A stretch of 64,000 nt of DNA from Leucobacter tenebrionis. Lineage in GTDB: Bacteria; Actinomycetota; Actinomycetes; Actinomycetales; Microbacteriaceae. The notes under the pieces were generated by a model, which searched no databases, was not told where the DNA came from, and worked only from the letters and a program-made list of their open reading frames with translations. Numbering within the stretch: position 1 is the first letter of the stretch; each line of letters starts with the position of its first letter. A program made the translations under genes and the position numbers. Location: the NCBI RefSeq assembly GCF_019884725.1, contig NZ_CP082322.1:2914001-2978000 (forward strand), given 5' to 3'. Positions 3,739-23,529 of this stretch are shown here, one piece after another.

Positions 3739-5532
3739 CTACTCCACGAGCTTGCCCTCGACCGAGGTGTCGATGTTGTCGTAGGCGAGACTGCGGAACG
3801 AATCAGGTGCCTCGGCCACGCGCTCGAAGGTCACGCCGCCCTCGGGGGTCCAGACGAAGCTGCCGCGCAGCGCCTCGTCCTGCTCCGGGAAATCGGACCG
3901 GTTGTGGCAGCCCCGGGTCTCGCGGCGCTCGATCGCGCACTCGAGGGTGGCGCGGGCGGCCAGCAGCGAACCGTAGAGATCGAACGCGTGGGCGAGGTCG
4001 TCGAAGCCCGCGATATCGGGGTGCACCCCGAGACCGGAGGCGCGATCCTCGATCGCCCCCAGCTTCTCGAGGCCCTCGCGCAGCCCCGCCTCGCTTCGCA
4101 CCACACCCGCGTGCTCGGTCATGAGGTCGCGCACGGCCCGCTGCAGCAGGCGCGGAGTCTCGGTGCCCTTGCTCGAGAGCAGCGCCCGCATCTCGGCCCG
4201 CGCCTCGGCCACGGCCTCTGCCGAGCGGGTCACCCTCGTGAGCCCCGAGACGTACTCGGCCGCGTCGGTGCCGGTGATGCGCCCGTACACGAGCAGTTCG
4301 ATGAGCGAGTTGCCGCCGAGACGGTTCGCGCCGTGCAGACCAGAGGACGCCTCCCCGATGGCGTAGAAGCCGTCGACGCCGGTGCTGTGGCTCTCGGCGT
4401 CGACCCAGACGCCGCCCATCGAGTAGTGCGCCGTGGGAGCGATCTCGATCGGCTCCTCGGTGATGTCGAGCATCTGCAGGTCGATGAGCGTGCGGTAGAC
4501 CCGGGGCAGCTTCTCGAAGATGGTTTCGCGCGGCAGGTGCGAGACGTCGAGGTAGACGCCGCCGTTCGTCGTGCCGCGCCCCTCGATGATCTCGGTGTAG
4601 CTCGCGAGTGCGACGCGATCGCGGGTCGAGAGCTCCATCCGCTCGGGGTCGTAGCGCTCCATGTAGCGCTCGCCCAGGGCGTTGCGCAGGATGCCGCCCT
4701 CTCCGCGCGCCGCCTCGGAGACGAGGGTTCCGGCGGCGTCGGCGGGTTCGAGGATGCCCGAGGGGTGGAACTGCACGAGCTCGGCATCGCGGATCCTGGC
4801 ACCCGCGAGGGCGGCGAGACGGAAGGAGTCGCCGGTGTTCTCGTCGCGTCGGGAGGAGGTGTTGCGCCAGATGCGGTTGTGCCCGCCCGCTGCGAGGATC
4901 ACGGCGTCGGCGTGGATGAGCACGGGGGTGCCGTCGACGACGTCGAAGCCGTAGGCGCCGAAGATCCTGCCGTCCGCGGCCAGCAGGCGGGTGATGTAGA
5001 TCGTGTCGACGATCGGCACCTCGAGCTCGCGGGCGCGGCGCAGCAGCGTGCGCTGGATCTCGAGGCCGGTGTAGTCGCCCGCGTAGCAGGTGCGGCGGTA
5101 CTTGTGCGCTCCGAAGAAGCGCTGGCTGATCCGCCCGTCCGCCTCGCGCGCGAAGGGCATGCCCCAGCGCTCGAGATCCTCGATGCCGCGGGCCGCGTTC
5201 TTGGCGACGACCTCGATGATCGCGGGATCGCCGAGGAAGTACGACTCGCGCAGGGTATCGGCGGCGTGCTGCTGCCAGCTGTCCTCGGGATCGATCGTGC
5301 CGAGGGCCGCGTTGATCCCGCCGGCTGCGAGCGTCGTGTGGGCGTCGTGCTTGCGGCGCTTGCCGACCGCGAGCACCTGTACGCCCCGCTCGGCGAGCTC
5401 GATCGAGGCTCGCAGGCCGGCGCCCCCGGTGCCGATGACGAGCACGGAGGTCGAGAGCAGGCGCTCGGAGCGCGCGGAAGCAGGAATGTCGGTGGTTGCT
5501 GCGATGGTGTTCATGCGGACCACGCTAGGCAT
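3739..5532 (-). CDS. Orphan SdhA/FrdA-like FAD flavoprotein (fumarate reductase / succinate dehydrogenase family)
   Basis: The 597-residue protein has an N-terminal dinucleotide site (VLVIGTGGAGLRASIE), HTTLAAGGINAALG, QFHPSGI, the active-site region STRDRVALA, TAHYSMGGVWVD and ANRLGGNSLIELLVYGR. The histidine before TTLAAGG matches the residue that binds FAD covalently in SdhA/FrdA and is absent from NadB, so I prefer this family over L-aspartate oxidase. No iron-sulfur or membrane subunit gene is adjacent, so the electron partner is unknown. A divergent LysR gene shares the 60-base promoter region. The start at 5532 follows a TAATCG box by 7 bases; a second ATG at 5514 is possible. Confidence 0.75.
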   Translation of the reverse strand: MPSVVRMNTIAATTDIPASARSERLLSTSVLVIGTGGAGLRASIELAERGVQVLAVGKRRKHDAHTTLAAGGINAALGTIDPEDSWQQHAADTLRESYFLGDPAIIEVVAKNAARGIEDLERWGMPFAREADGRISQRFFGAHKYRRTCYAGDYTGLEIQRTLLRRARELEVPIVDTIYITRLLAADGRIFGAYGFDVVDGTPVLIHADAVILAAGGHNRIWRNTSSRRDENTGDSFRLAALAGARIRDAELVQFHPSGILEPADAAGTLVSEAARGEGGILRNALGERYMERYDPERMELSTRDRVALASYTEIIEGRGTTNGGVYLDVSHLPRETIFEKLPRVYRTLIDLQMLDITEEPIEIAPTAHYSMGGVWVDAESHSTGVDGFYAIGEASSGLHGANRLGGNSLIELLVYGRITGTDAAEYVSGLTRVTRSAEAVAEARAEMRALLSSKGTETPRLLQRAVRDLMTEHAGVVRSEAGLREGLEKLGAIEDRASGLGVHPDIAGFDDLAHAFDLYGSLLAARATLECAIERRETRGCHNRSDFPEQDEALRGSFVWTPEGGVTFERVAEAPDSFRSLAYDNIDTSVEGKLVE

Positions 5533-22024: not shown

Positions 22025-23020
22025 GTGCGGGTGGTCAGATCGGGAGATGCTGAAGGCGTGCTCGCGTGGATTCGCAAGCGGAGCACGATGTACTCGGTTG
22101 CCACCGCGACCCTCTGCGTCGTGTTCACCGTGCTGCTGTTCTCCGATCTGTTCCTGCCGGGAGGCCCGCGGCTCGGCTATCCGATAGCGGTCGCGCTCAT
22201 GCTCCTGTCGGCCGTCGCCGCCTTCGTGTTTCTCGTGCTCGGCGACAGGCTCGGATTTTGGCCGGCCCTCGCGGTCGCCACCGCCAACGGCGTCATGATG
22301 GTGCTCGACTTCACCCTGCTGCGCGTGCCGACCAACACCATCGGGTCCTTGATCCAGCTGCCGGTGCTGGCGCTCTACCTCGGCGTCTTCCTGCGCCCGC
22401 TCGCGGCGCGGGTCATGGAGGCCGGTGTGCTGCTGGCCGTGCTCTCCGCCGCCGTGCTGGGGCACGCGGGAACCGACGTCTTCTACGGCGGGAGGAACCT
22501 GCTCAAGACCATGGTCTTCGTCTGGGTCTGTCTCGAAGCCGGGATCTACGCTCGGAAACGATTCAGGCGCGAGACCCATGTCGACAGCCTGACCGGCCTG
22601 CTGAACCGGCAGGGCCTCCTCGACCGCGCCTACGCCGAGCGGGCGCGCGCCAGCCGGAGTGAGCGCCCGATCAGCGTTGCGATGATCGATCTCGATCGTT
22701 TCAAGCAGATCAACGACACCCGGGGTCACAGCGCGGGCGACTACGTGCTGCGCGGTCTGGCGGGGCAGTGGAAGACGCAGTTGCGCGAGAGCGACATCAT
22801 CGCGCGGCTCGGCGGCGATGAGTTCGTGGTCGTGCTGCCCGACACCGACGCCGAGACCGGGCGCGGCGTCATGGAACGCCTCAACGGGCACTCGTCGCAC
22901 CCCTGGTCGTGGGGCCTCGTCGAGTGGCGGGCCGACGAGAAGCTCTCCCACGCGATCGCCAACGCCGACGGCGAGATGTACCGAGACAAAGCATCGCGTC
23001 GGGATCCGACCGAGCGATAA
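22025..23020 (+). CDS. Membrane-bound diguanylate cyclase (GGDEF)
   Basis: The 331-residue protein has five or six membrane helices in residues 20-180 with no recognised sensor family, then a GGDEF domain from about 185 (DSLTGLLNRQGL). The active site GGDEF is intact at 263-267, and an RxxD inhibitory site (RESD, 254-257) lies exactly five residues before it, so product feedback by c-di-GMP is expected. No EAL domain is present. The start is uncertain: GTG 22025 or ATG 22088 (MYSVATATLCV). Its signal is unknown. Confidence 0.9.
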   Translation: MRVVRSGDAEGVLAWIRKRSTMYSVATATLCVVFTVLLFSDLFLPGGPRLGYPIAVALMLLSAVAAFVFLVLGDRLGFWPALAVATANGVMMVLDFTLLRVPTNTIGSLIQLPVLALYLGVFLRPLAARVMEAGVLLAVLSAAVLGHAGTDVFYGGRNLLKTMVFVWVCLEAGIYARKRFRRETHVDSLTGLLNRQGLLDRAYAERARASRSERPISVAMIDLDRFKQINDTRGHSAGDYVLRGLAGQWKTQLRESDIIARLGGDEFVVVLPDTDAETGRGVMERLNGHSSHPWSWGLVEWRADEKLSHAIANADGEMYRDKASRRDPTER

Positions 23021-23057: not shown

Positions 23058-23240
23058 TCAACCGATAAGCGAGGGGATATCCCGTCGTGCGTGCAGCAAG
23101 CGGATGATTTCGATTCGATCCGTTTGCTCACGATAGAGCATCAGGTAGGGGAATCCCGGAGTTGCACGATGGCGCAGCTGCTCGAAGTTGAGGATCTGGG
23201 CGTAGCGTTGGGAACCGAGCGAAGGATGTTCGGCGATTTC
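23058..23240 (-). pseudogene. C-terminal remnant of a ParE/RelE-type toxin
   Basis: Sixty codons in the frame ending at 23058 read EIAEHPSLGSQRYAQIL... FPYLMLYREQTD.IEIIRLLHARRDIP, the C-terminal half of a ParE toxin (HP-LGS-RY, FPYL-x-x-YR, LHxxRDIP). A TGA closes the frame ten codons upstream of residue E1 and no start codon lies between, so the N-terminal ~40 residues and the start are gone. It overlaps the 3' end of the parD-like gene in another frame, as if a deletion fused the antitoxin end to the toxin middle. The product is probably not made. Confidence 0.8.
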
Positions 23241-23458
23241 CCCTGCTGTCTCATGCGCTCCATGACTTCGTCATGCGACATCCCGGAATCCCCGGAGTCG
23301 ATGCCCTCCTGAAGAAGATCACGGAGCTGCTGCTTCGCCTGCTCCTGCTCGAGCAGGGCGTGCAGGTACTCGACGACCGTTCCGTAGCCGCCTTCAGCGA
23401 CCTTGCGATCGACGAACGCCTGCGCGTCTTCGCTCAATGAAACGGTGATCTCGCTCAT
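23141..23458 (-). CDS. ParD-like antitoxin with an aberrant C-terminal tail
   Basis: The first ~72 residues match ParD antitoxins: MSEITVSLSEDAQAFVDRKV (ribbon-helix-helix), GGYGTVVEYLHALLEQEQAK and SGMSHDEVMERMRQ. The last ~30 residues are serine- and threonine-rich and are simply toxin-gene DNA read out of frame, so the natural stop has been lost. ParD normally represses its operon and neutralises ParE; here the partner toxin is a fragment. The gene may persist as a lone DNA-binding protein or an anti-addiction antitoxin. It stands between a diguanylate cyclase and a uvrA-like gene. Confidence 0.8.
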   Translation of the reverse strand: MSEITVSLSEDAQAFVDRKVAEGGYGTVVEYLHALLEQEQAKQQLRDLLQEGIDSGDSGMSHDEVMERMRQQGKSPNILRSVPNATPRSSTSSSCAIVQLRDSPT

Positions 23459-23529
23459 GCGCTGATTCTATGCCGCCCTGATCGAGTCGTGTCAACCGGT
23501 CGTCGCCTGAACGAAAAACAGCGGTTCGG

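Follow-up and report, generated by a model that had tools for sequence, protein, structure and literature searches.

The window, as we call the whole stretch of Leucobacter tenebrionis DNA that was analysed (64,000 nucleotides), carries on its minus strand an ORF for a ParD antitoxin that runs, in the wrong frame, into DNA of the partner toxin gene, parE, of which the C-terminal part can still be read in another frame (Table 1). This parDE remnant sits between a uvrA-like gene, which matches ABC_tran (Pfam), and a GGDEF gene. The GGDEF (diguanylate cyclase) gene occupies positions 22025-23020 of the window and lies between the remnant and a further gene that we read as LOG-like; both this name and uvrA-like are our own.

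Table 1. Features at the parDE remnant, in window coordinates.
Feature	Position	Strand	Remarks
Promoter-like TTGACA (23490-23495) and TAGAAT (23465-23470)	23465..23495	-	spacer 19; predicted, picked by eye
parD ORF with foreign tail	23141..23458	-	105 aa, ATG start
ParD-homologous part (RHH region and most of the C-terminal region)	23237..23458	-	codons 1 to ~72-74
Estimated deletion junction zone	23237..23249	-	putative; ~150 bp missing relative to full-length relatives
parE DNA read in the parD frame	23144..23236	-	~31 codons; predicted unstructured tail
ParE C-terminal remnant	23061..23243	-	61 codons, without start codon; stop codon 23058-23060

The C-terminal region is the toxin-binding part of antitoxins of the ParD family. 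A preliminary description of this DNA, made from its letters alone, had taken the antitoxin to be complete through this region, and this proved right as far as about residue 72. Two profiles recognise the 105-aa ORF as ParD, namely TIGR02606 (antidote_CC2985; residues 4-66, E=3.2e-13, 49.5 bits with a cut-off of 46.2) and PF03693 (residues 5-71, E=1.8e-7, 31.9 bits with a cut-off of 21), and the solved structures closest to it in sequence are also of ParD antitoxins (3kxe_C, E=1.2e-4; 7b22_A, E=1.7e-4). The homology stops near residue 72, short of a full native C-terminal region, and the 37 related ParDs that we collected are 74-91 aa long, so that the window ParD is not quite whole: its last few residues have been swapped for out-of-frame parE sequence. 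The AlphaFold model (105-aa ORF with 18 relatives as input, monomer; mean pLDDT 74.5, pTM 0.41) predicts helices at residues 10-23, 28-55 and 62-73, with a mean pLDDT >90 over residues 11-50, and an unstructured chain afterwards, the pLDDT block means being 52-63 from residue 71 onward. The end of the predicted structure, at about residue 73, agrees with the junction estimate.

The ParE remnant lies in the -1 frame relative to parD, within a stretch that is open from 23061 to 23267 (minus strand). This stretch matches PF05016 (E=3.1e-6, 28.1 bits with a cut-off of 23) over profile positions 34-88 of 89, finds no NCBIfam family at E<=1, and has ParE chains as its nearest solved relatives, weakly (5cw7_B, E=0.0074). 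It does not amount to a full ParE gene: the first 33 of the 89 profile positions are absent, a TGA at 23271-23273 stands directly upstream in the ParE frame, and none of the codons between this TGA and the homologous part is ATG, GTG or TTG. Since both these 33 positions and the start codon are missing, production of a toxin from the remnant is very unlikely. The profile matches thus bear out, coordinates included, the earlier account of a ParD antitoxin joined to a start-less ParE remnant that lies in another frame after a TGA.

The length of what is missing can be estimated from full-length relatives. As a reference set we took 37 parD-parE pairs of full length found in other bacteria: a scan of genome contigs supplied 28, and genomes from the family of L. 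tenebrionis supplied 9; L054 and the loci without the start motif M..MN[IV]SL (L021, L022, L024, L030, L034 and L048) were excluded, and L011-L019, which are the same places as L056-L064, were counted once. As landmarks we used the position of R70 of the window ParD and, in ParE, the glycine within the HP..GS stretch; their spacing was measured in 35 of the 37 pairs, L023 and L037 being omitted because the motif filter picked no ParE there. The landmarks are 35 bp apart in the window and 177-224 bp apart in 35/35 pairs; the window is therefore shorter by 142-189 bp (median 150), although some of these pairs are near-identical and do not count as 35 independent observations. In 23 of the 35 the ParE-to-ParD frame relation is that of the window, and for these a loss of ~150 bp, a multiple of 3, gives exactly the out-of-frame join seen, whereas the other 12 have a different relation. 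A difference in frame between parD and parE is natural, and the join would thus reproduce their usual offset. That one internal deletion joined the end of parD to the middle of parE, as had been proposed beforehand, is well supported by the additional 142-189 bp in all the pairs measured, and one deletion would be the simplest account of the locus. Since the relatives are distant (best identity 42% for ParD and 50-53% for ParE), the junction is given as a zone rather than as an exact base, and how many events took place is a deduction.

The two parts of the locus are not equally well preserved. In the ParE remnant 15 of 22 strongly conserved columns are intact (0.68), and in a leave-one-out comparison the lowest of 27 non-redundant full-length ParE rows kept 0.67, 0.71, 0.71 and 0.72, with a median of 0.92. 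The ParD part keeps 15 of 32 conserved columns (0.47), and the lowest of 25 non-redundant reference rows is at 0.84, these rows having been collected mostly through ParE similarity; the window ParD would be either a diverged subtype or a protein in which decay has begun, and the figure fits both alike. Base composition also sets the locus apart: its GC content is 0.575-0.62 against 0.635-0.715 in the surroundings, and GC3, which is 0.87-0.94 in three neighbouring genes, falls to 0.78 in the ParD part and to 0.59 in the ParE remnant. The lower GC3 would fit foreign DNA.

In the own genome, PF03693 and PF05016 each have a single match at E<=0.01, and both matches fall within the parDE remnant. 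Across the genus (54 genomes including the own one, threshold 0.001), the ParD query matches only two others, G033 and G356, and the ParE query no other genome. The ParE search is not exhaustive, since it missed a full-length ParE in G033, and PF03693 at 0.001 fails to recognise the ParDs of G033 and G356, so that divergent copies, in the own genome too, could be overlooked. A uvrA-like match is present in 51 of the 54 genomes; G002 and G364 were excluded because their matches are partial, and 49 sites (the own one and 48 congeners) were examined over ~1500-2500 bp downstream of the uvrA-like gene, or less in L128. Profile searches place parDE downstream of this gene in the own genome and G033 only, the G033 score arising by construction because its proteins were in the profile, and 47 of the 48 congener sites are without it. 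In L067 (genome G029), which has the same uvrA-like and GGDEF neighbours, 195 bp separate the aligned blocks against 517 bp in the window. A gene related to the GGDEF gene occurs only at L067, L068 and L083 among the 48 congener sites, within the sequence examined; in L068 (genome G025) the same uvrA-like/GGDEF gap holds a 333-aa ORF (3934-4935, minus strand) that by eye looks like a transposase.

A DNA search of 60 related genomes yielded, besides the locus itself, nothing but short matches of 27-54 bp, spread over 8 genomes. At the family level (n=299 including the own genome), ParE was detected in 9 other genomes (E<=1e-6) and ParD in the same 9 (E<=1e-5), and at the level of the phylum (396 genomes) 11 others had a ParD match (E<=1e-6); one scan of genome contigs with ParE yielded 35 loci, the best at 53% identity. 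The deletion had also been called recent, which would fit the frame of the remnant, still open, and the lack of any closely similar copy among the congeners sampled.

In G033 (L110/L129), one of the two congeners with ParD matches, the uvrA-like gene is followed immediately downstream by a full-length parDE, which shares its site and strand with the window remnant. The ParE of this pair matches PF05016 at 1.7e-11; the ParD matches no Pfam family at 0.001, yet it matches the window ParD at 5.7e-10, and SHEEV in its C-terminal stretch resembles, by eye, the SHDEV of the window ParD. We considered whether this pair is the orthologue of the window locus and judge it unlikely: in similarity to the window, the G033 ParE ranks last of 36, although its ParD ranks 5th of 38. 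The low rank of the ParE suggests that the G033 parDE is probably a separate, independent insertion at the same spot, and the site downstream of the uvrA-like gene may be used repeatedly. The other congener, G356 (L111, ~1492-1803, reverse complement), has a ParD-like ORF that stands alone: it is extended at its C-terminal end, and no ParE precedes the gene that follows. Its match to the window ParD is at 1.2e-6, and it has none to a Pfam family at 0.001.

Upstream of the window parD, only 6 bp separate the end of the promoter-like TAGAAT from the start codon. The predicted TTGACA/TAGAAT promoter could drive transcription of the antitoxin and, given this short distance, the transcript is possibly leaderless; a consensus scan for promoters (spacer 16-18) and terminators found none at the locus, the pair picked by eye having a spacer of 19. 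All 37 relatives with an M..MN[IV]SL start (L020-L053 and L056-L064), which span actinobacterial and proteobacterial loci, have two TGNCA half-sites 5 bp apart, starting 33-36 bp before parD, mostly in the inverted form TGRCA..TGYCA and in 7/37 with TGCCA in both halves. This pair is probably the ParD operator. It is absent before parD in the window and in G033, and a different operator at the window parD is possible.

Taken together, these observations are best explained, with a probability of roughly 86%, by a type II parDE locus, probably acquired horizontally, that was hit by one internal deletion of ~150 bp and left with an orphan, tail-altered antitoxin. The module would have been placed between the uvrA-like gene and the GGDEF gene, and the deletion, which we infer to be a single and later event, would have taken the last few parD codons, the short parD/parE overlap or spacer and, as estimated by eye, about the first 40-45 parE codons. 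The toxin could then no longer be produced, and toxicity would have been lost with it. A 105-aa antitoxin with an unrelated tail may still be produced; at most, it would be able to bind the promoter of its own gene, and it is probably drifting. Such an event is ordinary, a common kind of genetic decay, and simple decay of the parDE locus is in our judgement the most likely course.

Other readings share part of this evidence. The fused ORF might be retained as a working orphan antitoxin, either repressing its own promoter or, in an anti-addiction role, neutralising ParE that comes in from outside. An open ParD part with confidently predicted helices and a promoter-like TAGAAT close to the ATG would suit such a role, as would the lone ParD-like ORF of G356; orphan antitoxins are a reported class in which, according to the part of the source available, ParD1_3_4 is among the prevalent ones (PMC12654330), and anti-addiction is a use proposed for them in the available part of another (PMC7354431). 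Several points make it improbable here: (i) the C-terminal end of ParD is partly lost; (ii) the ParD query has no match in plasmids at 1e-5 or in phages at 0.01, and no confirmed match in viral contigs; (iii) the ParE relatives found in 101 plasmid records are all <60% identical; and (iv) the paired TGNCA of 37/37 relatives is absent, though another operator could take its place. The suggestion of the preliminary description that the antitoxin is kept for anti-addiction or regulation found nothing positive at this locus. Somewhat less probable still is that the deletion gave rise to a new short protein, in which an RHH antitoxin carries an alien tail of 31 residues, and that this protein is expressed from a leaderless promoter and retained as a regulator in its own right or for anti-addiction.

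An assembly or sequencing error that lost ~150 bp could account for the gap, the loss being explicable as one block, but we hold it to be very improbable: the genome, 99.52% complete, is assembled in one contig, and a block loss where the surrounding repeats are only short ones (9-15 nt) is, in our judgement, unlike a homopolymer error. A frameshift yielding a functional ParD-ParE(C-terminal) fusion protein is scarcely credible, because, although the parD frame and the -1 frame of ParE are both open across ~42 codons, a strict X XXY YYZ heptamer is found nowhere in the parD frame of the ORF, the product would lack the same 33 profile positions, and no relative among the loci examined has such an arrangement.

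With decay by one deletion as the preferred reading, the locus is one more toxin-antitoxin locus with a lost toxin, in which comparison with full-length relatives gives an estimate of how much is missing; were selection to act on the antitoxin, the locus would show clearly how one deletion can give rise to an orphan antitoxin. Like the ParD/ParE type II systems described by TIGR02606, PF03693 and PF05016, it has both genes on one strand, close or overlapping, with the antitoxin first and profile matches to both parts. However, it differs from them in having no complete toxin gene and in the 3' end of parD, which is swapped for out-of-frame parE DNA. Orphan antitoxins have been reported and are explained partly as remnants of degraded systems, as regulators or as anti-addiction modules (available parts of PMC7354431 and PMC12654330), many of them being proposed as such remnants (PMC7354431, likewise in part). 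The window locus resembles the orphan antitoxins of degraded loci in that its antitoxin ORF has no cognate toxin and adjoins the remnant of one, and differs from them only in that its missing length is measurable against full-length relatives.
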